Shown here: positions 13,815 through 29,384 of the stretch, piece after piece | How the letters are laid out: each line of letters begins with the position of its first letter | Position numbering within the stretch: position 1 is the stretch's first letter | NCBI RefSeq assembly: GCF_000016185.1 | Contig: NC_011420.2 | Location: 1,756,501-1,820,500 of the forward strand | Reading direction: 5' to 3' | Source of the DNA: Rhodospirillum centenum SW | GTDB lineage: Bacteria > Pseudomonadota > Alphaproteobacteria > Azospirillales > Azospirillaceae | Length of the DNA: 64,000 nucleotides | Notes under the pieces: generated by a model | The model's input: the letters and a program-made list of their open reading frames with translations, nothing else | Told to the model about the DNA's origin: nothing | Database searches by the model: none | Made by a program: the position numbers and the translations under genes

Positions 13815-15854
13815 ATGGCGACCGCCGCACAGAAAGCCGTTCCCGATCTCGCCTACGAGCCCGTCGATCTCGGCGGGCGCTGCGAGATCCTGCCCGGGTC
13901 GCGGCTGCCCGACCTCGACTCCCCGGCCGGACCGTCCTTCGTCGCGCGCAGCAAGCGCGAACGCAGGACGGAGCTGTTCGCCACCATCGTCGAGACGCCG
14001 GTGCCGGCGCGGATCGAGATGCTGGCCACCCTGCGCGGCCTGGAGCATCCCCACATCCTGCGGGTGGTGGACTGGGGCACGGTGACCTGGCCGCTGGAGT
14101 CGCGCCGCCGCTTCGCCATCGTGTTCGAGCGGCCGGCCGGGCGCCGGCTGATGGACACCCTGTCGGACGTGCGCGACCCGATGGGCGAGGACGTGATCGT
14201 GCGGCAGATCATGCCGGCGATGCTGTCCTGCCTGAAGGATCTGGGCAGCCGCGGCATGACCTGCGGTGCCCTCCGGCCGACCAACCTGTTCTTCCGCGAT
14301 CCCGCGGCCGGCGGAATCCTGCTGGGCGACTGCGTCAGCGTGCCGCCCGGCTATGCCCAGCCGCTGCTGTTCGAGCCGGCGGAACGGGCCATGGCCCAGC
14401 CCGCGGGACGCGGCCCCGGCACCATCGGGGATGATCTCTACGCCCTGGGCGTCACGCTGCTGATCCTGGCGGTCGGTCGCAACCCGGTCCGCGCGCTGGA
14501 TGATGAATCGCTGCTCCAGTCGAAGATCGACCGCGGCACCTACATCACGCTGGCCAGCGGCGTCCGCCTGCCGCAGACGCTGATCGAGCCCCTGCGCGGC
14601 CTGACCATCGACGATCCGCGCCAGCGCTGGACGGTGCAGGACCTGGACCTCTGGCTCCAGGGCCGGCGGCTGACGCCGAAGCAGGCCAGCACGATCAAGC
14701 GCGCCGGCCGCCCGTTCGAACTGAACGGGCAGGAGATCTACCATTGCCGGCCGCTGGCCCGTGCCCTGGCGGCACAGCCGGCGGTGGCGGCCCAGATCAT
14801 CGAGCGCGGCGATCTGGACAAGTGGCTGCGGCGCAGCCTGTCCGACGACGCGCGGGCCGAGGCGGTGCAGGCAGCCATCGAATCCGCCGGAGCCGGCAGC
14901 CGTCCGGCCAGCCTGGAGGACCGGGTCGTGGCCCGGACCTGCATCGCGCTCGATCCCGCCGCCCCCATCCGGTACAAGGGCCGCATCGTCATGCCCGACG
15001 GCATCGGCACGGCGCTCGCGGAGGCCGTCGCCACCGGCGGCGGCGGGCAGCAGGCCATCGCCGAGATCCTGCTGGCGCAGCTTCCCATGTTCTGGGTCAG
15101 CAGCCAGGTGGATTTCCGGCCCGAGCATGTGCCGATGGTGCAGTCCTTCGACTACATGCGGACCCTGCTGGAACAGACCGGCCCCGGCTTCGGGCTGGAG
15201 CGCGTGCTCTACGAGATGAACCCGGCGCTGCACTGCCTGAGCCCGCAGATCGCCGACCAGCACGCGCTGACGCTGTCCGACCTGCTGCTGGCGCTGGACA
15301 CGGCGGCGGCCAGCCCGGTGCACGGCCGCGACCCGATGGACCGGCACGTCGCCGCCTTCATCGCCACCCACCACAAGCGCCTGAACGACCGGCTGCTGAA
15401 CCCGCTGGCGGCGGTGGGGGACAACACCCGGCGGCTGATCGCCACCCTGAGCATCCTGGCCGACGTGCAGTCCCGCTACGGACCGGCCAGCCTGCCGAAC
15501 CTGTGCCAGTGGCTGGTGTCGCTGCTGGACCCGGCGCTGAAGCGGTTCAAGAACCGCCGGACCCGGGACCGGATCAAGCAGGAGGCGCAGCGGCTGGCCC
15601 GCGACGGCTCGCTGGAGGCCTTGCTGAAGCTGCTGGACGATCCGCAGACCCTGAAGGCCGACGAGCGCGGCTTCATGCAGGCGATGCAGAAGCATGAGAG
15701 CCTGACCCGCCAGATCGACAAGCTCAAGCGCGGCATCGACAACCGCGGCGTCATCGCCGAAGGTACCGGCCGACAGATCGCCGCCGTGGCCTCCAGCGTC
15801 ATCGCCATGGCGATGCTGATCGTGATCGTCCTGCTGATGGCGGGGACCCCATGA
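13815..15854 (+). CDS. Kinase-like (pseudokinase) protein with C-terminal membrane anchor
   Basis: A 679-residue protein. Residues about 40-285 follow the Ser/Thr kinase fold, but the catalytic loop reads CGALRPTNLFF near residue 152 where active kinases have H-R-D-L-K-P-x-N, so the catalytic Asp is replaced by Ala. The metal-binding position survives as LLGDCVS near 170, and the F-helix region DDLYALGVTLLILAVG is normal. Residues 290-640 are an uncharacterised helical region. A single hydrophobic helix (VIAMAMLIVIVLLMAG) ends the protein. The stop overlaps the next start as ATGA, so the two are translationally coupled. It may be a scaffold or sensor rather than an enzyme. Confidence 0.75.
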   Translation: MATAAQKAVPDLAYEPVDLGGRCEILPGSRLPDLDSPAGPSFVARSKRERRTELFATIVETPVPARIEMLATLRGLEHPHILRVVDWGTVTWPLESRRRFAIVFERPAGRRLMDTLSDVRDPMGEDVIVRQIMPAMLSCLKDLGSRGMTCGALRPTNLFFRDPAAGGILLGDCVSVPPGYAQPLLFEPAERAMAQPAGRGPGTIGDDLYALGVTLLILAVGRNPVRALDDESLLQSKIDRGTYITLASGVRLPQTLIEPLRGLTIDDPRQRWTVQDLDLWLQGRRLTPKQASTIKRAGRPFELNGQEIYHCRPLARALAAQPAVAAQIIERGDLDKWLRRSLSDDARAEAVQAAIESAGAGSRPASLEDRVVARTCIALDPAAPIRYKGRIVMPDGIGTALAEAVATGGGGQQAIAEILLAQLPMFWVSSQVDFRPEHVPMVQSFDYMRTLLEQTGPGFGLERVLYEMNPALHCLSPQIADQHALTLSDLLLALDTAAASPVHGRDPMDRHVAAFIATHHKRLNDRLLNPLAAVGDNTRRLIATLSILADVQSRYGPASLPNLCQWLVSLLDPALKRFKNRRTRDRIKQEAQRLARDGSLEALLKLLDDPQTLKADERGFMQAMQKHESLTRQIDKLKRGIDNRGVIAEGTGRQIAAVASSVIAMAMLIVIVLLMAGTP

Positions 15855-16393
15855 GGCGCGACACCGACCGGTACGGCGGCGAACGGCGCGGCGGCGGCGG
15901 GCTGCTGCTGCTGCTGGCCCTGATCCTGCCCTTCGGGCTGGTCGTCATGCCGACGACGATCCTGATGCTGGCCGCCCTGGTCCCCACCCTGGTCGCCTAT
16001 GTCGTGGACCGCGATCCGGAGAAGTCGGCGCCGCTGACCGTGGGGGCGATGAATCTCTGCGGCGTCATGCCCTTCGCCATCCGGCTCTGGCAGGACGGGC
16101 ACACGATCGAGCTGACCATGCGGATGCTGGCCGACCCCTATACCTGGCTGGTCATGTATGGCGGGGCGGCGATCGGCTGGCTGCTCTATTTCGGCATCCC
16201 GCCGCTGGTCGCCGGTGCCGTCGTCATGCGCGACGGAACCCGCATCCGCGAGATGGAGGAACAGCGGCGCCTGCTGGTCGAGGAGTGGGGTCCCGAGGTC
16301 GCCGGCCGCACGCCGGAGACCGAGCCCGCCGACCTGCCGGCCGAGGCAGAGCGCGTCCGCGGCCTGCTGCCCGCCCCGGCCCGGGGCACCTGA
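15851..16393 (+). CDS. Polytopic membrane protein coupled to the pseudokinase
   Basis: This 180-residue protein has a charged N-terminus (MRRDTDRYGGERRGGGG), a long hydrophobic hairpin at residues 18-50 (LLLLLALILPFGLVVMPTTI), further spans near 62-75 and 95-125, and a charged C-terminal tail with a helical REMEEQRRLLVEEWG segment. It starts within the stop codon of the pseudokinase gene, so the two products are probably made in fixed ratio and may form a complex in the inner membrane. I recognise no named domain. Confidence 0.7.
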   Translation: MRRDTDRYGGERRGGGGLLLLLALILPFGLVVMPTTILMLAALVPTLVAYVVDRDPEKSAPLTVGAMNLCGVMPFAIRLWQDGHTIELTMRMLADPYTWLVMYGGAAIGWLLYFGIPPLVAGAVVMRDGTRIREMEEQRRLLVEEWGPEVAGRTPETEPADLPAEAERVRGLLPAPARGT

Positions 16394-16442
16394 ACCGGCG
16401 GACGCCCGACCGCGACCGCCACGCCCGCGACGGAGGAGAACG

Positions 16443-17312
16443 ATGGCGCACGCTGATCGGGTCTGGTTCATCACGGGGGCGTCGTCGGGCTTCGGCCACG
16501 CCCTGGCGCAGGCGGTGCTGGCCCGTGGGGAGCGCGCGGTGCTGACGGCGCGCCGGGCCGGGCTGCTGGAGCCGCTGGCCTCGGCGCACGAGGGCCGCGC
16601 CCTGGCGCTGCCGCTGGACATCACGGACGCGATCGCCCGGGAACGGGCCGTGGAGGCCACGCTGATCCGCTTCGGCCGGATCGACGTGCTGGCCAACATC
16701 GCGGGCCGCGGCTCGCTGGGCGCCGTCGAGGAGTTCTCCCCCGACCAGTTGCGCGGGCAGATGGAGCTGAACTTCTTCGCCGCGGCCGAACTGACCCGGG
16801 CCGTGCTCCCCGTCCTGCGGGCGCAGCGGTCGGGCCACATCCTGAACCTGACCAGCATCGGCGGGCTGGTCTCCATGGGCGGCTTCGGCGTCTACTGCGC
16901 CTCCAAGTTCGCCCTGGAAGCCTGGAGCGAGGCGCTGCGCGACGAGGTCGCCCCCTTGGGCATCCGCGTCACCATCGTCGAGCCGGGCGCCTTCCGCACC
17001 GACTTCGCGGGCGATGCCAACCTGCGGCCGGCCCACCGCATCGACGCCTACCGGCCGGTGATCGGCCCCGTCGAGACGTTCCTCTACGGTCAGGCAGGCC
17101 GGCAGGCAGGCGACCCGGCCCGCGCCGCCGAGGTGATGATCGCAGCGGTGGACAGCGACGTCCCGCCGCTGCGCCTGATGCTGGGAAGCGATGCCTACGA
17201 GCTGTGGGAGCGTACCGTTGCGGCCCGCACCGCGGACCTGGCGGCCTGGCGGGAACGCGGCGAGGCAACCGCGTTCCCGGATGCCGGAACGGTCCGGATC
17301 GGCCCGGGCTGA
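16443..17312 (+). CDS. SDR family NAD(P)-dependent oxidoreductase
   Basis: A 289-residue classical short-chain dehydrogenase/reductase. The cofactor motif TGASSGFG is at residues 11-18, the NIAG segment follows strand 4, the catalytic Ser lies in LTSIGGLVSMGGFG, and YCASK (Tyr near 151, Lys near 155) completes the active site. The ARRAGLL segment after strand 2 suggests NADP(H). Substrate is unknown. The ATG at 16443 follows GGAGGAGAACG. The gene is 49 bp downstream of the membrane-protein gene and may share its transcript. Confidence 0.88.
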   Translation: MAHADRVWFITGASSGFGHALAQAVLARGERAVLTARRAGLLEPLASAHEGRALALPLDITDAIARERAVEATLIRFGRIDVLANIAGRGSLGAVEEFSPDQLRGQMELNFFAAAELTRAVLPVLRAQRSGHILNLTSIGGLVSMGGFGVYCASKFALEAWSEALRDEVAPLGIRVTIVEPGAFRTDFAGDANLRPAHRIDAYRPVIGPVETFLYGQAGRQAGDPARAAEVMIAAVDSDVPPLRLMLGSDAYELWERTVAARTADLAAWRERGEATAFPDAGTVRIGPG

Positions 17313-17360
17313 CCGGCCCGGTACGGGCTGACTGCCAGCGGGCCGGGAACGGCGGCCGGA

Positions 17361-18245
17361 TCAGACCAGCCGCTGTTCCTCCGCGGCGCTGCGGATGGCC
17401 TTCTGCAACTTCTCGAAGGCCCGCACCTCGATCTGGCGGACGCGCTCGCGGCTGATGCCGTACTGCTGCGACAGGTCCTCCAGCGTGGTCGGGTTGTCGC
17501 GCAGGCGGCGCTCCACCAGGATGTGGCGCTCGCGGTCGTTCAGGGTCTTCATCGCCTCGGCCAGCAGGGCCTTGCGCTTGCCCAGCTCCTCCCGCTCGCC
17601 CAGGCGGATTTCCTGGCTCTCGGACTCGTCCACCAGCCAGTCCTGCCACTCCCCCTCGCCGTCCACGCGCAGGGGCGCGTTCAGGCTGTGGTCGGGGCTG
17701 GCGAGACGCCGGTTCATGTTGACGACGTCGCTCTCCGGCACGTCCAGCGTCTCGGCGATCTTGCGCACCGTCTCCGGGTGCAGGTCGCCTTCGTCGATCG
17801 CCTGCATCTGGCCCTTCAGCTTGCGCAGATTGAAGAACAGCTTCTTCTGCGCGGCCGTCGTGCCCATCTTCACCAGCGACCAGGAATGCAGGATGTATTC
17901 CTGGATCGCGGCCCGGATCCACCACATGGCATAGGTGGCAAGACGGAAGCCGCGGTCCGGATCGAACCGCTTGACCGCCTGCATCATGCCGACATTGCCC
18001 TCGGAGATCAGTTCGGAGAGCGGCAGGCCATACCCCCGGTAGCCCATGGCGATCTTGGCCACGAGGCGGAGATGGCTGGTGACGAGCCGGTGCGCGGCAT
18101 CGGTGTCCCCGTGCTCGCGCCAGCTCTTGGCCAGCATGTACTCCTCCTCCGCCTCAAGCATGGGGAACTTGCGGATCTCCTGGAGATAGCGCGCAAGGTT
18201 GCTCTCGGAGTTGATGACAGGAACGGCGGGCAAGGTGCTGCTCAT
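17361..18245 (-). CDS. rpoH: RNA polymerase sigma-32 factor (heat shock)
   Basis: RpoH directs RNA polymerase to heat-shock promoters. The 294-residue protein has region 1.2 at the N-terminus, region 2 (AHRLVTSHLRLVAKIAMGYRGYGLP and DPDRGFRLATYAMWWIRAAIQEYIL), the RpoH-box signature QKKLFFNLRKLK near residues 129-140, and a region 4 helix-turn-helix with TTLEDLSQQYGISRERVRQIE. Length is typical for the alphaproteobacterial form. The 5' UTR on the minus strand contains a strong hairpin and a G-rich site close to the start codon that could be sequestered. It is downstream of rluD on the same strand, 114 bp away. Confidence 0.96.
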   Translation of the reverse strand: MSSTLPAVPVINSESNLARYLQEIRKFPMLEAEEEYMLAKSWREHGDTDAAHRLVTSHLRLVAKIAMGYRGYGLPLSELISEGNVGMMQAVKRFDPDRGFRLATYAMWWIRAAIQEYILHSWSLVKMGTTAAQKKLFFNLRKLKGQMQAIDEGDLHPETVRKIAETLDVPESDVVNMNRRLASPDHSLNAPLRVDGEGEWQDWLVDESESQEIRLGEREELGKRKALLAEAMKTLNDRERHILVERRLRDNPTTLEDLSQQYGISRERVRQIEVRAFEKLQKAIRSAAEEQRLV

Positions 18246-18282
18246 GGCTTCACCCCCTCGGGGCCTCCCTCAGCCTGGATTG

Positions 18283-18310
18283 CCCGCGGAACGGCGTTCC
18301 GGTCCGCGGG
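18283..18310 (-). other. Hairpin in the rpoH 5' region
   Basis: CCCGCGGA (18283-18290) and TCCGCGGG (18303-18310) are exact complements around a 12-base loop that can itself pair AACG with CGTT. It lies 38-65 bases upstream of the rpoH start codon. Nearer the start, GGCCCC is followed by GAGGGGG, so the ribosome-binding site could also be partly paired. Heat-labile structure is a known control of rpoH in some bacteria; here it is only a possibility. Confidence 0.45.
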
Positions 18311-18359
18311 GACTGGGCGGGCATGTCAGAATAACCGACTTCTCCACTCAGCAATAGCA

Positions 18360-19454
18360 TCATAGCGTTTCAAGACCTTGAATCAGTCCCGCGAGGTCTT
18401 CCGGCAGGGCTGCCGTGAAACCCAGCTTCAGATCGGAAGCCGGGTGCCGGAATTCCAGGGCCGCCGCGTGCAGCGCCTGACGGGGAAAGCCCGCCAGCGC
18501 GCGCAGCACCGGCTCCGGTGCGGTTCCCTTGCGCGGCGGCCGCAGCCGCCCGTAGAGCGGGTCGCCCACCAGCGGGTGGCCGACATGGGCCATGTGGACC
18601 CGGATCTGATGCGTGCGCCCCGTCAGCAGCTTGCATTCCACGAGGCTGGCGAGCAGCCCGAAGGAGCGCACCACCCGGTAGCGGGTGACCGCCGGCTTGC
18701 CGCCGCGCGACAGCACCGCCATCCGCTTGCGGTCGCCGGGATGGCGTCCGATGTTGCCCTCGATCACGCCCTCGCGCGCCGCGGGCACGCCCCAGACGAC
18801 GGCCAGGTAGGTGCGCGACAGGCTGCGGTCGGCGAACTGCGCCGTCAGCCCCTGGTGCGCCCGGTCCGTCTTGGCCGCGACCAGCAGCCCGCTGGTGCCC
18901 TTGTCCAGCCGGTGGACGATGCCGGGCCGGCGCACGCCGCCGATGCCCGACAGCCGGTCGCCGCAATGGGCCAGCAGCGCGTTGACCAGCGTGCCGTCCG
19001 GGTTCCCGGCGGCGGGATGCACCACCATCTCGGCCGCCTTGTCGATCACCAGCAGATCCTCGTCCTCATGGACGATGGCGAGCGGGATCGCCTGGGGCAG
19101 CGGCACCGCCGGCTCCGCCGCGGGCACCAGCACCTCGACGATCTGGCCGGGTTTGACCCGCCGGGAGGCGTCGTCTATGGTCTCGCCGCCTGAGGAGACG
19201 CAGCCCTGGTCGATCAGCGACCGCAGCCGCGAGCGCGACAGGCCGGCCCCGCCCAGGGCGTCCGACAGCACCTTGTCCAGCCGGTCCCCCGCCCGTCCGG
19301 CGGCGACCTCGACCTGGTGGCGGACCGCCTCCGACGGACGCTCGCCGGAAAGGTCGTCGCCCGTGGCTCCGTCCTCCAGGTCGTCCTCGCCGGCAAGGTC
19401 GTCCGGCAGGGCGTCGTCCGGATCGACCCAGTCCTGCCCGGCCGCCTGGATCAT
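18360..19454 (-). CDS. rluD: Ribosomal large subunit pseudouridine synthase, RluD family
   Basis: This enzyme isomerises uridines in the helix-69 region of 23S rRNA. The 364-residue protein has an acidic N-terminal extension of about 45 residues, an S4 RNA-binding domain (DRLDKVLSDALGG ... SRSRLRSLIDQGCV), then the RluA-type catalytic domain with HRLDKGTSGLLV, whose Asp is the catalytic residue, and the LLTGRTHQIRVHMAHVGHPLVGD block. I chose the ATG at 19454 because a divergent gene begins at 19497; the frame is open further upstream but would overlap it. The family is certain; RluD rather than RluC is likely from length and S4 domain. Confidence 0.92.
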   Translation of the reverse strand: MIQAAGQDWVDPDDALPDDLAGEDDLEDGATGDDLSGERPSEAVRHQVEVAAGRAGDRLDKVLSDALGGAGLSRSRLRSLIDQGCVSSGGETIDDASRRVKPGQIVEVLVPAAEPAVPLPQAIPLAIVHEDEDLLVIDKAAEMVVHPAAGNPDGTLVNALLAHCGDRLSGIGGVRRPGIVHRLDKGTSGLLVAAKTDRAHQGLTAQFADRSLSRTYLAVVWGVPAAREGVIEGNIGRHPGDRKRMAVLSRGGKPAVTRYRVVRSFGLLASLVECKLLTGRTHQIRVHMAHVGHPLVGDPLYGRLRPPRKGTAPEPVLRALAGFPRQALHAAALEFRHPASDLKLGFTAALPEDLAGLIQGLETL

Positions 19455-21008: not shown

Positions 21009-21088
21009 GTCCCCTTCGTCTAGAGGCCTAGGACACCGCCCTCTCACGGGCGGTAACAGGGGGTTCGAATCCCCCTAGGGGGACGCCA
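21009..21088 (+). tRNA. tRNA-Glu (CUC anticodon), with four extra bases versus canonical length
   Basis: The 80-base gene with encoded CCA reads as tRNA-Glu: acceptor GTCCCCT paired with GGGGGAC, D arm GTC/GAC, anticodon loop CTCTCAC (anticodon CTC), T loop TTCGAAT, then G and CCA. Against the 76-base E. coli tRNA-Glu (recalled from memory) it has one extra G in the 3' anticodon stem (GGGCGG), one extra pair in the T stem (five G, five C) and one extra G in the 3' acceptor strand. All four additions fall in G or C runs. It is either an unusual or degenerate tRNA, or the base calls are off. Confidence 0.85.
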
Positions 21089-21220
21089 ATCTTTACGCGG
21101 CTGACACCCGCTGGCACCGCCCGGTGCCCCGTCGGCTTTCATCAGTTTCTACGCTCTTCACCCTGATTGCCGCGCCCACAGGATCGTGGCGCAGGTCCGG
21201 CCGCTGCCCGGCCGGCTGGC

Positions 21221-21487
21221 TCAGGCGGCCTTGGCCCGGCGCTCTGCCATCGTGAACCTGACGCGCCCATGCCGCTCGTCGTCGCGTTCGTTCAGGCCCT
21301 CCAGCACCCGGCCGGCAAAGTCGGGCTGTAGACGCCGAACGGCCACGAAGAGCCGCAGGGCATGATCCACCGTGGGCGTGATGGCCTCAAGTGGCGCACC
21401 GTCGAAGCGGGCGATCTGCGAACGGGACAGGCCGACGACCTGCCCCAGACTCTCCTGGGACAGATCCGGCAAGTCATACCGCCGCGC
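21221..21487 (-). pseudogene. C-terminal fragment of an XRE-type HTH protein, cut at the IS element boundary
   Basis: On the minus strand, immediately after the transposase stop at 21488, the same frame continues as YDLPDLSQESLGQVVGLSRS and ends in ...MAERRAKAA. The first half is a plausible helix-turn-helix (LSQESLGQVVGLSRSQIARF). It has no ATG start; the first possible start is a TTG at 21472 without a ribosome-binding site. I read it as the 3' remnant of a regulator gene, perhaps an antitoxin, into which the IS630-type element inserted. No matching N-terminal part is recognisable on the other side of the element. Confidence 0.5.
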
Positions 21488-22554
21488 CTAAGCATTGACA
21501 CATGGGAGCCACGGATAGCTGGTGAGGGAGCGTAGACGTTCTGGTGTGGCGGTGAGGGCGTTCCAGGCGTCGCAGCAGGCTTGGACGACGGCGTCGTAGT
21601 CGTCCAGGATCTGGTGGGACAGAAAGCGCTCGCGCAGGTACAGCCAGACGCGCTCAACTGGGTTGAGTTCGGGGCTGTAGGGCGGGAGCGGGACCAGCGT
21701 GATGTTGTCCGGGACGACCAGCGCCCGCGCTCCGTGCCAGCCGGCCTGATCGAGCACGAGCACCGCCTGGACGTCCGGTTCCAGGCTCCGGGAGAAGCCG
21801 TCCAGGAACAGGCTCATGGCGGTGGTGGAGACGGTCGGCATCACCAGCGCGAAGTCGGCGCCGCTGGCCGGGCAGACGGCGGCGTAGAGCCAGGCCGAGG
21901 TGAAGCGCTTGTCGCACAGCCCAAGCGGACGCTGCCCGCGCTCCCACCAGCGATGCGCGGTGCGGCCCTTCTGGCCGATGCGGGCCTCATCCTGGAACCA
22001 GAGCTGGAGGCGGCGCTCCGGATGCGCGGCACCTGCGGCCTTCAGGGCTTCGCGCAGCCCCTTTTTTGGAAGGCGGCCTGGGCCTTGGCGTCGGACTGCG
22101 GATGGCGGGGCCGCGTCTTCTGCTTCGACAGGTTGAGCCGGCGCACGATGCGCGACAGGCTGGCCGGATGCAGCGTCTTGGCGAAGCGTTCGGCGATCAC
22201 CTCGCACAGGATCGGCAGGGTCCATTCCACGCAGCCATGCCGCTTGGGATCGGGGCCAGCGAGGATGATGGCCTTGAGCGTCGCCTGCTCGCCTTCGCTC
22301 AGCCACTCCGGCCGGCCGGGCAGCGGGCGGTCGTAGAGCCCGGCTACGCCTTCCGCGTTGTAGCGCACAACCGCGTCGCGCAGGGCCTGGCGGTCCATGC
22401 CGGCCAGCCGCGCCGCTTCCGCCCGGCTCACCCCATCGAGCGCATGGGCGATGGCGAACATCCGCGCCGCCACCCGCCCTTTGCTCTCCCGCCGCGCCAG
22501 GGCACGCAATTCGCTGGCGCTCAGGTCTTCCCGGATCGGCAACGCCGCTGGCAT
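21488..22554 (-). CDS. IS630-family transposase, two frames joined by a -1 shift
   Basis: A DDE transposase split over two frames. The first (from the ATG at 22554, with GGGGAGGAG before it) gives the N-terminal HTH half (ESKGRVAARMFAIAHALDGV, AARLAGMDRQALRDAVVRY) and would stop at 22042. The second, down to 21488, carries the catalytic half: LWFQDEARIG, VLVLDQAGWHG and PYSPELNPVERVW provide D, D and E. A run of six A on the minus strand (22067-22062) followed by G lies in the overlap; a -1 slip there joins them into one product of about 355 residues, the usual IS630 length. The stop codon overlaps a TA dinucleotide at the element edge, as known for this family. Confidence 0.88.
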
Positions 22555-22625
22555 TCGCTCCTCCCCATCGCGATGGGGAATCGAATCACGGATTGCCAGC
22601 CTTGGGAATCCCTCTCAGTGTGTCA
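21491..22625 (-). mobile_element. IS630-family insertion sequence, about 1.1 kb
   Basis: The transposase gene nearly fills the element. Matching tips TGACACA at 21496-21502 and its complement TGTGTCA at 22619-22625 mark imperfect terminal inverted repeats. A TA, the IS630 target, flanks the left side at 21489-21490. I see no TA directly outside the right tip, so that end may be decayed or slightly misplaced. The insertion separates an HTH fragment from the helicase gene, close to tRNA-Glu. Confidence 0.75.
22563..22578. promoter_or_regulatory. 16-bp palindrome upstream of the transposase start
   Basis: CCCCATCG followed directly by CGATGGGG is a perfect palindrome 9 bases upstream of the transposase ATG (minus strand). 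It could bind the transposase or form a hairpin that limits translation from outside transcripts. Role is inferred only from position. Confidence 0.4.
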
Positions 22626-22928
22626 GCGGCTCCGCTCGCCGGTATCACGCAGAAAGCGCACTTCCTGCCCGCGGATCGGCGCGGTACTCGGTGGTGCCGT
22701 GCAGTCCGCCGTGCATGAGACCTTCGCGCTTGCCTGACCGCCCACCGTCAATCGGCTTACGTGAGTTGGCGTTGCGCTGGCGGCGTCCAGAGTTGTATTC
22801 CCGAAAACCATAGTGCAGTCTGCCAGACGCGGTGAATAACCCGAACACGCAGCGATGTCCTGCATCGCCAAGCGTCCACGCCGTAAGCGGTTCACCGACT
22901 GTCATAGGGTCATCCTGGGTTCAGTTCT
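22626..22928. other. Non-coding or degraded stretch between IS630 and the helicase
   Basis: About 300 bp between the right tip of the element and the helicase start. Two short frames on the minus strand (ending near 22623 and 22645) lack any recognisable domain and have poor codon composition. I see no tRNA, clear terminator or strong promoter. It may hold the helicase promoter and remnants of the disrupted locus. Confidence 0.5.
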
Positions 22929-25900
22929 ATGCCGTCCACGCCCGATCCGGTTGCTCTGCTGAATGCCTGGCTGGCACTGGAGGCGTTGCAGCCACAGACA
23001 TTCCCGGAGCAGGATGCCCTGATCAGCGACGAGCCGCCGCGCCGGAAGCGTGGGGAACCCCGCAGGGTGCCACCTCGGCTGCTGCTGCCGTTTGATGTCA
23101 GATCCGGCCAGATGCCCTGGACCAGCCCTGCGGGTGACCGGGTGGGGTTGAAGCTCTCCGACGAAGAGACTATCCGCTGGTACTTGCCAGTCGCCTTTGC
23201 CAAGGTCAAACCGGCCGTCGAACTGCTGGTCAGGAATGTCGAGCCGGATGGCCCGGAGCGGGAGCAGGCGTCTGGGGTCGCCGTGCTGGCGTTGGCATCC
23301 TTCGATGAACGGGGTTTCCCATCGTCCAAGGTGCTGCTGTCCAGTTTCGGCTGGGCCTGCGGAGAGGTTCTGGCTGACCGGATATCCGGCTTGCACCGGT
23401 ATGAGGACGTCCAGGACGACCTGTGCCGGGAGATCGGTGACGCGCTGATCGAACGCGACGAGGACGGCTGCCAGATTCCGACGACCAGGCGCGGATTCAT
23501 CCTCGGCATGAGCGCGCTGGAGCGGTGCCTGAACCTGCCGAAGGAAGTGCTCGAGCGACCGCGGGTCGCCATCCGCGTCATCGGGGACGGCGAGAAGGAA
23601 CCGGCCGACATCATCAACAGTTTCTTCCTCCGCGATCTGCACCGCATCCGCACCGTCGTTCAGGCCGGTGGAGGCGGGCCGATGCTGAAAACCTATCTCG
23701 GGAGCCGGCCGCCGTCGCACCGCCGCGACGTGCTGGCCGACAAGGCGCTGCTGGAGGATCTGCTGGCACCGCGACGGCTGCCCCTGGCCCGCTGGCCGGC
23801 TCCGAAGCCCGCCAAGCTGGTGACGTTGCAGCAGGCGGCGGTGAACGCCGCCATGCGCGATCTGGCGGATGGCGGGATACTCTCCATCAACGGGCCGCCC
23901 GGCACAGGCAAGACGACGCTGCTGCGCGACGTAGTCGCTGCCGTGATCCTCGACCGGGCCGACGCGCTGCTCGGGTTCGAAGACCCGGCATCCGCCTTTT
24001 CGTCTGCGGACCTCGTCGCCGAAGGTGGCCGCCGGCAGACGCTCTACAGCCTGGACGCCCGGCTGCGGGGGCGCGGCATTGTAGTCGCCTCCTCGAATAA
24101 CGCCGCCGTGCGGAACGTCAGCGCCGAACTGCCTCTCGCCGGAACGGTGGATTCGGATTTCGCCGTGCGCCATTTTCCCGGCACCGCCGATACTGTTCAC
24201 GGCAAGGCGGAGAGTTGCTGGGGGCTCATCGCCGCGGTGCTCGGCAACATGACCAACCGCACAGAATTCGTCGAGGACGCCTGGTGGCATCCGGATTGGG
24301 GGTTGGAGAAGTACCTTGCCGCCGTGACCGGACGGGTGAAGCGCGACCGTGCGGGCGATCCGCCCCCGACAATCGTCGAGGTCGAGACGCCGCCACGGAG
24401 CAAGGCGGCGGCCATGGAACGCTGGCGCCAGGCTTGCCTTGACTACCGGGAGAAGCGGGCATCGGCCGCGAGCATGCAGGCGTTGCGCGAGCAGATCCGC
24501 ACGGCGCTGTGGACGGCGGCCTCGGTCCAGCAGGCCATGGACGATGCCCATGCGGCGCACCGTGCCGCGGCCGAGGATGCGGACAAGGCACGGGAAACCC
24601 GCCGCGCTGCGGAACTGGCGCTGGCGCGGCTCGACGCCGCGGTCGCCGATGCACGCCGTCTGCTCGACGGCAATACCGCGCTTCAACCGGTTCCTGTTTT
24701 CCGCTGGCTGGGCCTGGATGCCCGCTGGCGGCAACGGCAGGAGGAGGCGATGAACCTCCTGCGGCGCATGCTGGCCGACCAGGAAGCTGCCCGAACCGAA
24801 CTGTCTGCCGCTGGGATCCGGATGGAGACGGCGGACGCACGGGCAAGAACGGCCGAGGCCGCACTGACAGCCAGCCAGGAGCGATGGGCCCAGTTGCGTG
24901 ACCTGGAGGACCGGTGTCCTGAGATCTGCGCCGGCACCCAGCTAGGGCCGTCATTCTGGAGCGGCTCCCACAAAGCCATTCACACTGCCAGCGCCTGGGC
25001 GGACCCTGATTTCACCGCAGCGCGGGATGAGATGTTTGCCGCCGCGATGCGGCTGCACCGCGCGTTCATCGACGCCGCCGCCGGGCCGATGAAGTCGAAC
25101 CTCGGGCTGATGATGGATCACCTCAAGGGCAAGCGCATTCCGTCCGGCGCCGATGCCCATCTTGGCGATCTGTGGGACAGCTTTTTCCTGATGGTCCCGC
25201 TCGTATCGACGACCTTCGCCTCGTTCGACCGGCTGATGGACGGGATGGGCGAGGGAGCGATTGGCTGGCTCATCGTCGATGAAGCCGGTCAGGCGACACC
25301 GCAGGCGGCGGCTGGCGCCGTGTGGCGGTCGCAACGAGCGCTCATCATCGGTGATCCGCTTCAGATCGAACCGGTGTCGAAGGTTCCCACGGGTCTCGTC
25401 CGGGCAATCTGCACCAGCTACGGGGTACACCCCGACCTCTGGGCGGCGCCGCGTGCATCGGCGCAGACCCTCGCCGACGCGGTCAGTCCGCTCATGGCCC
25501 GTATGGGCGCGGGCACCGATGCCCGGGAGATCGGCCTTCCGCTTCTCGTGCATCGTCGCTGCCAGGACCCGATGTTCTCGATCTCGAACGAGATCGCCTA
25601 TGGCGGATTGATGGTGCATGCGGCAGGAGATCCGGCATCCCCCATCGCCGACGCCCTGTCGCCGTGGCTTGCCGGCAGCGCCTGGATCGACGTCCGCTCC
25701 AACGCCGAGAAATGGAGCAAGACGGAAGGCGAAGCGGTCGTCGATCTCCTGCGGAAGCTGAGCCTCCGGGGCATCCGGAAGCCCAGCCTGTATATCATCT
25801 CACCCTTCCGGGTCGTGGCGGACAAGCTCAGGAGTTCTGTACTCAAGAGCGGCGTCCTCGATGAACTGGGCATTGAGGGAAAGAAGCCGAAGGAGGATTG

Positions 25901-26249
25901 GGGGAGGACGCACATCGGAACCGTCCATACCTTCCAGGGCAAGGAGGCGGAGGCCGTGCTGCTGGTCCTGGGGGCCTCGGCGGATACCAGTCGCGGATCG
26001 CGGAACTGGGCGGGCGGGACGCCGAATATCCTGAATGTCGCCGCCACGCGGGCGAAAAAGGTGATGTACATCGTCGGCTCTCACGCAGCCTGGGTCAACA
26101 CCGGGGTGTTCGCCGTCGCGGCCACAGCACTCCCCGTCGTGTCTTGGCCGTTCGATCTGCGTGAAACTCCCGATGAAGGCAATGAACTGCCCTTCGAATT
26201 GGAAGACAGTGCCGACGAGGAGGAAGCCGCCTTGTCATTGGCGGAGTGA
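22929..26249 (+). CDS. Large superfamily 1 (UPF1/DNA2-like) DNA/RNA helicase with coiled-coil insert
   Basis: A 1106-residue protein. The N-terminal ~290 residues match no family I know. The helicase core follows: Walker A GPPGTGKTTLL near residue 322, Walker B VDEAGQATPQAA near 783, GDPLQIEPV near 808, a VHTFQGKEAEAVLLV motif near 1000, and NVAATRAKKVMYIVGS near 1036, as in the AAA_11/AAA_12 pair of UPF1, DNA2 and IGHMBP2. About 450 residues separate motifs I and II; residues roughly 480-640 are Ala/Arg/Glu-rich and likely coiled coil. It stands alone between an IS630 element and a gene-poor stretch. Helicases of this class occur in phage-defence loci, but no nuclease or partner is visible. 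No strong Shine-Dalgarno precedes the ATG. Confidence 0.8.
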   Translation: MPSTPDPVALLNAWLALEALQPQTFPEQDALISDEPPRRKRGEPRRVPPRLLLPFDVRSGQMPWTSPAGDRVGLKLSDEETIRWYLPVAFAKVKPAVELLVRNVEPDGPEREQASGVAVLALASFDERGFPSSKVLLSSFGWACGEVLADRISGLHRYEDVQDDLCREIGDALIERDEDGCQIPTTRRGFILGMSALERCLNLPKEVLERPRVAIRVIGDGEKEPADIINSFFLRDLHRIRTVVQAGGGGPMLKTYLGSRPPSHRRDVLADKALLEDLLAPRRLPLARWPAPKPAKLVTLQQAAVNAAMRDLADGGILSINGPPGTGKTTLLRDVVAAVILDRADALLGFEDPASAFSSADLVAEGGRRQTLYSLDARLRGRGIVVASSNNAAVRNVSAELPLAGTVDSDFAVRHFPGTADTVHGKAESCWGLIAAVLGNMTNRTEFVEDAWWHPDWGLEKYLAAVTGRVKRDRAGDPPPTIVEVETPPRSKAAAMERWRQACLDYREKRASAASMQALREQIRTALWTAASVQQAMDDAHAAHRAAAEDADKARETRRAAELALARLDAAVADARRLLDGNTALQPVPVFRWLGLDARWRQRQEEAMNLLRRMLADQEAARTELSAAGIRMETADARARTAEAALTASQERWAQLRDLEDRCPEICAGTQLGPSFWSGSHKAIHTASAWADPDFTAARDEMFAAAMRLHRAFIDAAAGPMKSNLGLMMDHLKGKRIPSGADAHLGDLWDSFFLMVPLVSTTFASFDRLMDGMGEGAIGWLIVDEAGQATPQAAAGAVWRSQRALIIGDPLQIEPVSKVPTGLVRAICTSYGVHPDLWAAPRASAQTLADAVSPLMARMGAGTDAREIGLPLLVHRRCQDPMFSISNEIAYGGLMVHAAGDPASPIADALSPWLAGSAWIDVRSNAEKWSKTEGEAVVDLLRKLSLRGIRKPSLYIISPFRVVADKLRSSVLKSGVLDELGIEGKKPKEDWGRTHIGTVHTFQGKEAEAVLLVLGASADTSRGSRNWAGGTPNILNVAATRAKKVMYIVGSHAAWVNTGVFAVAATALPVVSWPFDLRETPDEGNELPFELEDSADEEEAALSLAE

Positions 26250-26745
26250 TGTGTTTGCCCGGTCTCTGACACAGAGGTTTGCCGGCGGGGGGAACGCGGC
26301 ATGGTGGCCGCAACCTGCTGTCGGGAGGTGGACATCACCCTTGCAGGGTCAGGACGCAGGATGCCGTGCGCCTTCTAGCGCTCCTTCTCCGGATGGCCGA
26401 TGACGATCACCTTGGCTGAATCCGCCGCGCGCTGATGAATCAATCGCTTGGCATGCATCAGCATGCAGGTTGGCCCGGTTGATCTGCCGTAGGACGGGAG
26501 GGGAACCAGAAACAACTTAGCGTTGTTGCTGTATTTTCGGCCAGCTTCAAACGGTACGGGAAACGGCGTTACACAGAACGATGGTGTCGATTCACCTCGG
26601 CCCTGGCCGGTGAGCATCCGGGACCTGTAGCAGGAACATCCCTTTCCGCCCGGCCTATCTCCTGTCGTTCAGGCTCGGAAGCCGGGTAGAGATACTGAGC
26701 CGACGCGGTTCACCCCCCTCTCCCGATCCCAACCCCGGAGCCTCC
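26250..26745. other. Gene-poor stretch with small dyads, end of the accessory island
   Basis: Nearly 500 bp with visibly lower GC than the flanks around 26400-26600. It contains two perfect dyads, GCATGC-ATCA-GCATGC at 26451-26466 and AACAAC-TTAGC-GTTGTT at 26511-26527. A minus-strand frame at 26375-26617 (80 codons) ends in KVIVIGHPEKER but has no ribosome-binding site or recognisable family; it could be the tail of a decayed gene. I make no gene call here. Confidence 0.5.
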
Positions 26746-28085
26746 ATGCCCCTCTCCTTTCTCTCCCGCCGCCGGCTGCTGCTGGCGGCCCTGGCCGGCG
26801 GGCCGCTGCTGCTGGCGGGGGGTGCCGCGCGAGGCGGCGGGCCGGCGGACGGGCCGGGGACGGACGAGGCCGCGGCCGTGGCGGGGTTGCATGCGGCGCT
26901 GGCGGCGCGGGTGGATGCGGTGCCGGGACAGGGGGCCGTGTTCCTGGCGAGCTACGAACCCGATCCGGCCACCGGGCCGCTGGAGCCGGCGCTGCGCGGC
27001 GCGGCCTTCACCTATGACAACGCGCTGGCAGCCATGGCGCTGCTGGCGCGCGGGGACCGGGCACGGGCGCGGCGGCTGGGGGGCGGCCCTGGCCGCGGCG
27101 GCCGCAGGCGACCGGCACTATGCCGACGGGCCGGGTGCGCAACGCCTACCGCGCCGGCCCTGCGGCCACCCCGCCCCTGCCGCCGGGCTGGTGGGACGCG
27201 GGCAGCGGCATCTGGGCCGAGGACGCGACCATGGTCGGCACCGCCACCGGCAATGTCTGCTGGGCGGCGCTGGCCCTGCTGGCGCTGCACGACGACGCCA
27301 GGCATGCCGGGGATGCCGGGAGCGGCGCCGGAGCCGGAGCGCCCGTCGGAGAAGACTGGCTTGGGGCGGCGCGGCGGCTGCTGGGCTGGGTCGCGGCCAC
27401 AGTGCGCAATCCCGCCGCGGCGGGCGGCTTCGCCGGCGGGTTCCACGGCCACGAGCCGGCGCCGGTGCGGCTGGGCTGGGTCTCCACCGAGCACAACATC
27501 GACGCCTTCGCCGCCTTCTCCTGGCTGGCGCGGGCCACGGGCGAGAGCCGGTGGGAGGCGGAGGCGGCGGAAGCCGGCCGCTTAGTCGCCGCCATGTGGG
27601 ACGCGCAGGCGGCCCGCTTCCTGACCGGCACGCTGCCCGACGGGGTGACGCCCTCGCGCGCCGGCAGCTATCTGGACGCCCAGCTCTGGCCGCTGCTGGC
27701 CTTCCCGGACGGACCGGCGCGCTGGGGCCGGGTGCTGGAGACGGTCGCCGCCACCCACGCGGCGGAGGGCGGGCTGGACTTCAACGGCGACCGCGACGGT
27801 CTCTGGGTCGAGGGCACGGCGCAGGGGGCGCTGGCCTGGCGCCGGGCGGCCCTGGACGGCCGGGTCGAGGCACGGCGGCTGCTGGCGGTCGCCCTGGCCG
27901 AGCGGGCGCCCGGCGGCCTGCTCCAGGCCACGCGGGCGCCGTCCATCAGCACGGGCCTTGCGCTGGGGCCGGACTCCACCGAGCCCGACTTCCGCTACTA
28001 CCGCCGCCCGCACCTGGGCGCCACCGCCTGGGCCGTGCTGGCGGCGGAGGGCTGGAACCCCTTCACCGGGCGCCGGCTGGACTGA
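26746..28085 (+). pseudogene. Six-hairpin glycosidase-like exported protein, interrupted by two frameshifts
   Basis: The start encodes a Tat-like signal (FLSRRRLLLAALAGGPLLL) and an AAFTYDNALAAMALLARGD segment. The coding sense then moves frame at 27078-27083 (six G), continues as AALAAAAAGDRHYADG, moves again at 27128-27130 (three G), and runs on as RVRNAYRAG ... WWDAGSGIWAEDATMVGTAT ... WVSTEHNIDAFAAFSWLARA ... to a stop at 28085. Removing one G at each place restores about 445 codons with an alpha/alpha-toroid pattern seen in glycoside hydrolases and epimerases. It is either a pseudogene or carries two base-calling errors. Substrate unknown. Confidence 0.65.
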
Positions 28086-28145
28086 CGGCGGCGAAGCCGG
28101 CCGGCCCGAGACAGACCGTCAGGGCCGTCAGGGCCAGCGGGGCCG

Positions 28146-29384
28146 TCAGGGCCGGCGGGTCTGCACCGGCACCCGGTCGGGCTCCAGCTCCGCGAAGACG
28201 GAATCGAACAGCATCTCGCGGGCACGGTCCACGATGTCGTCCAGGCTGGGGGTGCGGGCGAACATCTTCTGCGCCCGCTGCCGGATCTCCTCCCGGCCGG
28301 GCAGGTGCGGCAGGTGCAGGTCGGGCATCTGCAACCCGGCCAGCGCCTCCCCCGCCGCGCGGCGGGCCTGGGCGAGGCGGTCCTCCATCCCGCTGCGGCC
28401 GGGCGCGGCGGCCATCGCCTCGCGCAGGCGGGCGGCGATGCGGCCGGTGTCGAAGCTGGCGGCGAGCTGGGCCGCCGCCTTCTCGATCACCTTGCGGCCC
28501 AGCCGCTGCTCGTTCCGCACCACGGACTTCGGCGGCTGGTGCAGGTCCCAGACGATGCCGGCCCAGGAGAGAACCTTGAGGATGTAGTAGGTCGGGTCGT
28601 ACTCCCACCAGCGGAAGCCCTGCCGCGCCGCCGACTGGTAGGCGTGGTGGTTGTTGTGCCAGCCCTCCCCCATCGTCAGGATCGCCAGGAACCAGTTGTT
28701 CCGGCTGTCGTCGCCGGTGACGTAGCGGCGGCGGCCGTGGACATGGGCCAGACTGTTGATGCAGAAGGTCGCGTGGTAGAGCAGCACGGTGCTCCAGAAG
28801 AAGCCGACCACCAGCCCGGACCAGCCGCCCAGCAGGAAGCAGAGCACCGCCAGCGCCACGGCCGGCGCGTTGGCCCAGCGGTTCAGCCAGACCAGTTCCG
28901 GATAGCGGGCGAGGTCGGCCACGACGGACAGGTCCGTATCCTCATGCCGGGGCGTGAAGATCCAGCCGACATGCGCCCGCCAGAACCCGACCTGCCGGGG
29001 CGAATGCACGTCGAATTCGGTATCCGACCAGCGGTGGTGATGGCGGTGCTTCGCCGCCCACCAGAGCACGCCCTTCTGGGTCGTGGACTGCGCCAGCAGG
29101 GCCAGCACGAACTGGAACCAGCGGCTGGTCTTGAAGGCCCGGTGCGAGAAGTAGCGGTGATAGCCGGCGCCGATGGCGAAGATCCGGACGATGTAGAGCA
29201 CGGCGCAGATCGCCAGCGCCTGCCACGTCACGCCGGTCCAGATCGCCGCGATACAGGCGATGTGGACCAGGACGAAGGGGATCGTGGAGGGATAGACGAT
29301 GTCGTCCGGCCCGTATCCGGAGGAGGACGGGTCGGGGCGGCCGGGGTCGGAACGGGGGATGCCGGCAGGGGTGGGAACGGTCAC
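28146..29384 (-). CDS. Acyl-CoA/fatty acid desaturase (delta-9 type)
   Basis: This membrane di-iron enzyme introduces a double bond into saturated acyl chains. The three histidine boxes are present: GYHRYFSHRAF, KHRHHHRWSDTEFDVHSP and GEGWHNNHHAYQSAARQG, with four hydrophobic spans and the C-terminal WWEYDPTYYILK. The GTG at 29384 is chosen because AGGAG stands about ten bases upstream; the frame stays open to 29516 but that part is low-complexity. The protein would be 412 residues, about 100 longer than the catalytic core because of a helical, charged C-terminal tail (residues about 310-412) of unknown role. Confidence 0.9.
   Translation of the reverse strand: MTVPTPAGIPRSDPGRPDPSSSGYGPDDIVYPSTIPFVLVHIACIAAIWTGVTWQALAICAVLYIVRIFAIGAGYHRYFSHRAFKTSRWFQFVLALLAQSTTQKGVLWWAAKHRHHHRWSDTEFDVHSPRQVGFWRAHVGWIFTPRHEDTDLSVVADLARYPELVWLNRWANAPAVALAVLCFLLGGWSGLVVGFFWSTVLLYHATFCINSLAHVHGRRRYVTGDDSRNNWFLAILTMGEGWHNNHHAYQSAARQGFRWWEYDPTYYILKVLSWAGIVWDLHQPPKSVVRNEQRLGRKVIEKAAAQLAASFDTGRIAARLREAMAAAPGRSGMEDRLAQARRAAGEALAGLQMPDLHLPHLPGREEIRQRAQKMFARTPSLDDIVDRAREMLFDSVFAELEPDRVPVQTRRP

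Follow-up and report, generated by a model that had tools for sequence, protein, structure and literature searches.

A mobile one-gene cassette in Rhodospirillum centenum encodes a Mokosh-like UPF1-type helicase, probably for defence

What is the role of a very large helicase gene that stands alone beside a tRNA gene and an insertion sequence? The question is raised by a 64,000-nucleotide stretch of the Rhodospirillum centenum SW chromosome (NC_011420.2, positions 1,756,501 to 1,820,500), here called the window, whose own numbering is used throughout. An initial annotation of the sequence saw in this gene, which codes for a helicase of superfamily 1 (SF1), either a one-gene defence system or the remnant of one. 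Our present results favour, with modest confidence, a mobile one-gene cassette coding for a Mokosh-like, UPF1-type SF1B helicase, most probably defending against phages or other incoming elements. At the level of the family, sequence comparisons support the defence reading because of the match to MkoC, the UPF1-like motor, the transfer of a single gene, purifying selection and relatives located beside defence genes.

The open reading frame (ORF) at 22929-26249 on the plus strand is open and complete, with 1106 residues, and a Pfam scan of its product finds AAA_11 and AAA_12. The following features lie along it, all on the plus strand:
22929..26249, plus strand: UPF1-like SF1 helicase gene (P0001), 1106 aa (ORF list, Pfam, PADLOC, AlphaFold2, fold search)
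22929..23810, plus strand: N-terminal region, residues 1-294, conserved in the family; its invariant residues include no recognised catalytic triad (alignment)
23892..23915, plus strand: motif I, Walker A GPPGTGKT, residues 322-329 (alignment)
24081..24116, plus strand: conserved SSNN..AVxN block, residues 385-396 (alignment)
24402..24929, plus strand: predicted antiparallel coiled coil, helices 492-584 and 597-667, upstream of motif II (AlphaFold2)
25278..25292, plus strand: motif II DEAGQ, residues 784-788 (alignment)
25350..25364, plus strand: motif III GDPLQ, residues 808-812 (alignment)
25923..25946, plus strand: motif V VHTFQGKE, residues 999-1006 (alignment)
26034..26057, plus strand: motif VI NVAATRAK, residues 1036-1043 (alignment)

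Motifs I, II, III, V and VI are thus all present in order, as the initial annotation had it, and together with the UPF1-like fold they place the protein among UPF1/DNA2-like SF1B helicases. Genes of this kind are currently annotated as "DEAD/DEAH box helicase", "AAA domain-containing protein" or "ATP-binding protein". The C-terminus comprises 63 residues past motif VI and has no PLD domain, PLD motif or PLD family. Motifs I and II are separated by 462 residues, close to the insertion of about 450 residues described initially, but not all of this gap is insertion, because the conserved SSNNxAVxN block (385-396) sits within it. Its variable, coiled-coil part covers about residues 480-690.

AlphaFold2, run on proteins of the window and of the fetched loci, gave a model of the helicase with a mean predicted local distance difference test (pLDDT) score of 80.1 and a predicted template modelling (pTM) score of 0.75. 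In the model the variable region forms a pair of long antiparallel helices (492-584 and 597-667), which we read as a coiled coil. Modelling, proposed as a check by the initial annotation, yielded a UPF1-like fold with a long helical arm. Foldseek and VIA group the model with SETX, Sen1, UPF1, IGHMBP2, Dna2 and Aquarius, with VIA Z of 17-20 to UPF1, Sen1, SETX, IGHMBP2 and Dna2; the top VIA row is 8rd3, Upf1 (Z 20.1, root-mean-square deviation 5.7, 485 aligned). Such a fold tells the type of motor, not its function.

The N-terminal region was initially called unrecognised. This holds for its structure, while the family alignment adds that residues 1-290 are kept in relatives down to about 30% identity. 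Invariant or nearly invariant are W14, E18, L20, P22, P63, W64, W142, S231, F232, D236, L237, L253, Y256, P281, W289, P290 and a few others. Modelled alone (pLDDT 82.3), the region has a best Foldseek match of only E 1.2 and just two VIA rows (Z 2.9 and 2.1), and gave no usable match by which SmpB-like or RNase-toxin-like N-terminal domains, as in CnuH of CoCoNuT types II and III, might be recognised; the missing structural match does not demonstrate a new fold. A nuclease concealed in residues 1-290 was considered and rejected, the invariant residues being, by eye, unlike any known nuclease triad. A Pfam search with the additional N-terminal residues of three further members of the family returned nothing above the cut-off.

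The closest relation to a known defence protein is with Mokosh, as the initial annotation had suspected. The top PADLOC model is MkoC of Mokosh type II (E=1.7e-59; residues 301-1051 against 253-943 of 1136), and there is a weaker match to MkoA (6e-26). Profile-profile comparison with MkoC reaches 100% probability across the helicase and the helical insertion and leaves the N-terminal and PLD parts unaligned. Mokosh type II, in the part of its published description drawn on here (PMC11672841), is a helicase with a C-terminal PLD nuclease in one gene. Judged by the MkoC match (1.7e-59), the window protein is a single-gene helicase of the COG1112 type which that part of the definition names. It was rejected as a member of Mokosh type II because it has no C-terminal PLD domain and does not group with MkoC in trees.

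The PLD motif pattern is present in 1 of 39 members of the clade of the window protein, versus 8 of 11 in the MkoC clade. The sole PLD-bearing member, L059, matches MkoC nearly to the end of MkoC. A first tree of 52 rows, built by a quick method and with long branches flagged, already placed the two clades apart. After removal of 13 long-branched, partial or near-duplicate rows, a second, unrooted tree of 39 rows, also quickly built, divided 32 from 7 rows on one branch with a support of 100 in the Shimodaira-Hasegawa-like approximate likelihood ratio test (SH-aLRT); it requires three changes in PLD presence. Ten of the 17 annotated loci discussed below (L014-L023) are included. The window helicase may well work like Mokosh type II despite not belonging to it. 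Judged by title and abstract opening, no article listed in searches of open-access PubMed Central (PMC) has a nuclease-less MkoC-like family as its subject.

The gene was recently transferred horizontally as a single gene. Four copies with 89-94% identity occur in three other genomes of the same taxonomic family, whose PurA proteins are only 76-80%, and flanking aldolase-like proteins 64-68%, identical to those of the window genome. Among nearer genomes, G012 (PurA 89%) has no helicase match and G812 (PurA 87%) only a 39% relative. One of the four copies (L161:10002-13171, G774; 94% identical) matches from residue 51 only, its 5' part having been replaced or lost. Comparison of DNA with G764 (locus L160) delimits the common unit:
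22661..26346, plus strand: unit shared at 92.6% DNA identity, consisting of the gene, 268 bp upstream and 97 bp downstream (DNA comparison)

The similarity to A. rugosum L002 covers 22790-26251 at 88%, and shorter forms of the unit are found in L002 and L003. About 170 bp upstream of the helicase are alignable across three loci. No DNA similarity was found beyond the shared unit in the flanks fetched for G764 and L002. Because similarity to both ends there, the moving unit looks like one gene with its upstream region of about 270 bp. The ratios of nonsynonymous to synonymous substitution rates (dN/dS) against two A. rugosum copies are 0.128 and 0.144, and the gene is under purifying selection. 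Its third-position guanine plus cytosine content is 0.80, versus 0.90-0.97 in 18 of 25 other script-picked ORFs at 10-46 kb of the window.

Relatives are patchily distributed. At E<=1e-60, with the window genome included, matches were found in 17 of 82 genomes of the same family and 6 of 385 of the class, one of the latter (G010) being also a row of the query alignment. In the phylum, 20 of 398 genomes match the MkoC model at E<=1e-40, true MkoC and the window family taken together. Four phage records match. P0001 alone found no relative in the Viral_contigs scan, and query A1 found 16 loci there. On a viral contig, a distant relative (L080:4978-9516) carries a 297-residue C-terminal extension without PLD motif. 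Among 5426 Escherichia coli genomes, 15 have relatives of the L022 gene, all plasmid-borne, and 2 have relatives of the L021 gene, both chromosomal. A housekeeping gene was ruled out by the patchy distribution and the evidence for transfer. The family is patchy and mobile, with some members beside defence genes, and the stable synteny that would have spoken against the initial proposal did not appear.

The neighbourhoods of homologues, whose comparison was also proposed initially, were inspected in 17 annotated loci, taken from the best-scoring hits and not at random; L148 and L152, without annotation, were left out. PADLOC supports defence genes in 7 of the 17:
L014: type IV enzyme and type IIG
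L016: type IV enzyme
L147: type IV enzyme
L019: IetAS
L020: Shango ABC
L021: Septu PtuA
L154 (E. coli H6): Shango ABC and Hachiman HamB

This number is a minimum because only chosen neighbours were scanned, and it represents fewer than seven independent cases because L014 and L147 (nucleases 96.7% identical) and L021 and L154 (helicases with 93% DNA identity) are close relatives. The type IV restriction nuclease gene lies directly 3' of the helicase, after a 65-bp gap in L014, with a 1-bp overlap in L147 and after a 75-bp gap in L016. Pfam locates an Mrr catalytic domain at the C-terminus of this nuclease in L014 and L016. Apart from closely related pairs, neighbours vary from locus to locus.

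Several further observations concern these loci. In E. coli H6 (L154:1-33630) the helicase of the family, at 15001-18630, shares a chromosomal island with Hachiman, Shango, a DUF4238 gene and pieces of an integrase. A 709-aa protein in G672 (L122:11319-13448) begins 6 bp after the family helicase, and its match to DUF4238 falls short of the cut-off (26.2 bits against 27). In G764, genes matching the NERD and PDC-S57 models lie within 7 kb of the helicase; its largest neighbour (a 1109-aa ORF) and three scanned L161 neighbours gave no match.

A number of results weigh against a role in defence. The Pfam scan recognised no defence gene beside the window helicase, and a type IV enzyme model found no match at E<=0.001 in the whole window genome. 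In ten of the 17 loci PADLOC supports no defence gene among the neighbours selected for scanning, and several neighbours of relatives are metabolic. L156 has a relative of the Mrr-type enzyme with no annotated helicase of the window kind within 6 kb, so the pairing of helicase and Mrr is not obligatory. At E<=1e-15, 58 PADLOC families were counted for 132 neighbours from 15 loci, versus 27 for 132 of 209 control proteins from random stretches of genomes of the same set. This control is weak, since it used script-picked ORFs, dropped 77 of the 209 proteins to equal 132 and counted families, not loci; it shows only mild enrichment in defence genes. The comparison thus places some homologues beside defence genes, and its control is only weakly positive.

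Other loci point to the life of plasmids: copies in L022 and L155 are located in a transfer region, between tra genes, those in L149 and L151 beside replication and ParA genes and that in L015 between rep genes, while A. rugosum L002 has an integrase (Pfam) and, by our reading, a ParA-like ORF nearby. The helicase might accordingly serve transfer, establishment or inter-element competition of plasmids and integrative elements, with defence neighbours reflecting shared mobile islands. Matches at E<=1e-5 in 712 of 72,556 plasmid records (all below 60% identity), of which 609 are predicted conjugative, agree with this, but the count is inflated and not all of these records need hold the window family, because Klebsiella accounts for 547 of the 712 and a single stretch matching 80% of the query is present in only 2. 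We think such a role rather unlikely, given that chromosome-sized contigs of G672, G668 and the window genome carry copies, as does the chromosome of E. coli H6, that the neighbours differ and that a restriction-type nuclease stands behind three copies. General repair or surveillance of RNA or DNA by an accessory gene with no immune role would suit the UPF1/Sen1/Dna2-like fold, which alone is no proof of defence, and gains from the weakness of the neighbour control; the patchy occurrence, mobility and position beside defence systems in several species make it improbable.

Least credible is a decayed remnant of Mokosh type II that lost its PLD domain, although helicase and helical insertion align with MkoC and the domain, absent here, is carried by one relative, L059. 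The motif is missing in 38 of 39 clade members, the group stands apart from MkoC and the nuclease-less form was itself transferred. The frame is intact, dN/dS is 0.13-0.14 and copies 89-94% identical occur in genomes with a PurA identity of just 76-80%, so the second option of the initial annotation, a remnant, is very improbable.

If the cassette acts in defence, as we favour, its N-terminal region and coiled coil would recognise or hold foreign RNA or single-stranded DNA, or a protein partner. UPF1-like enzymes translocate 5'-3'. The motor would then translocate and either strip or unwind phage nucleic acid directly or pass it on to a nuclease whose gene lies elsewhere. In some relatives this nuclease may be the product of the neighbouring Mrr-type gene, and in L059 the fused PLD domain. 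For the window gene, the motor alone may be enough, or a host nuclease might take part, because no partner was recognised at the locus and no type IV enzyme match was found in the genome. In the part of the CoCoNuT description used here (PMC11090510), CnuH of types II and III is UPF1-like and has a coiled coil inserted behind Walker A, its relatives are typically in operons with a downstream gene for a winged helix-turn-helix (wHTH) nuclease, and its coiled coil is proposed to contact the wHTH-nuclease protein. We think that the helicase probably provides sensing and motor action and leaves any cutting that is required to a different protein, because its layout resembles CnuH and three loci have a nuclease gene in that position.

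The setting of the gene agrees with the initial picture of a lone helicase in an accessory island. Around the helicase the window contains:
21010..21084, plus strand: tRNA gene, left edge of the variable interval (ARAGORN)
21089..28156, no strand: interval absent from genome G012 (genome comparison)
21221..21478, minus strand: 3' remainder of a small helix-turn-helix (HTH) gene cut by IS630 (HTH models at E 0.02-0.05 only)
21479..22642, minus strand: IS630-family insertion sequence, with TA at 21477-21478 and 22643-22644 (Pfam, genome copies, alignment)

ARAGORN labels the tRNA "???" with a four-letter anticodon "ctca"; we read its letters as probable Glu(CTC). IS630 has four additional copies in the genome (97-100% identity) and lies directly left of the shared unit, leaving the helicase gene untouched. 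The HTH piece remains 85 aa without its 5' part even when IS630 is removed from the sequence. From the tRNA to the desaturase gene the distance is 7.07 kb in the window, about 3.9 kb in G011 and about 300 bp in G012, the nearest relative seen, which lacks the 7.07-kb insertion. The interval looks like an insertion hotspot. In G011 it carries other genes, including one of 376 aa (L055:6428-7558) with no Pfam or PADLOC match. Between 21093 and 28400 no duplicated tRNA end of >=10 bases was found as an attachment site, and a scan of 22640-26800 found no promoter or terminator. The immediate neighbours of the helicase are an aldolase-like gene, the tRNA, the HTH piece, IS630 and a gene for a secreted protein without Pfam match. 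This last gene (26746-28085, plus strand) seems to be divided between overlapping frames of 279 and 321 aa, as after a frameshift, neither with a Pfam match. As noted initially, no nuclease, PLD or kinase partner was recognised beside the helicase by ORF list and Pfam.

If true, a mobile, mostly nuclease-less sister family of MkoC would uncouple sensing and motor activity from cleavage. It moves as one gene, has copies near Shango, Hachiman, Septu or IetAS in some species, and provides natural pairs, with nuclease and without, for probing immunity by UPF1-like helicases. More tentatively, and on balance doubtfully, it could be a widespread and as yet unnamed group of single-gene immune helicases of the Pseudomonadota, sensing through an N-terminal domain whose fold is unassigned and acting by motor and coiled-coil arm alone or as a targeting module for varied nucleases (Mrr-type in cis, PLD fused, others in trans).

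Among known systems, UPF1, IGHMBP2, Sen1/SETX and Dna2 share the helicase fold (VIA Z 17-20), but are eukaryotic, whereas the window protein carries an inserted long helical arm; Dna2, unlike it, is a nuclease-helicase (title of 5eaw). Residues 1-290, searched alone, gave no structural match. Mokosh type I (MkoA and MkoB) has a related helicase core, and no kinase or PLD partner gene of its kind was recognised at the window locus by ORF list and Pfam. Nor was a CoCoNuT CnuB/McrB GTPase or CnuC recognised there, and none is so named among the annotated neighbours in L014-L023. MkoC, too, is a UPF1-like SF1 helicase coded for by a single gene, and has a similar layout in which the N-terminal region is followed by motif I, a long helical insertion and motif II; it differs in its C-terminal PLD nuclease, in an N-terminal region outside the profile alignment and in its separate tree group. 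CnuH, compared through the portion of its published description cited above, is likewise an SF1 helicase of the UPF1-like kind, with a large helical, coiled-coil segment inserted behind Walker A, and its downstream nuclease gene recalls the Mrr-type gene behind the helicase in L014, L147 and L016, in which a wHTH part was looked for by Pfam only.

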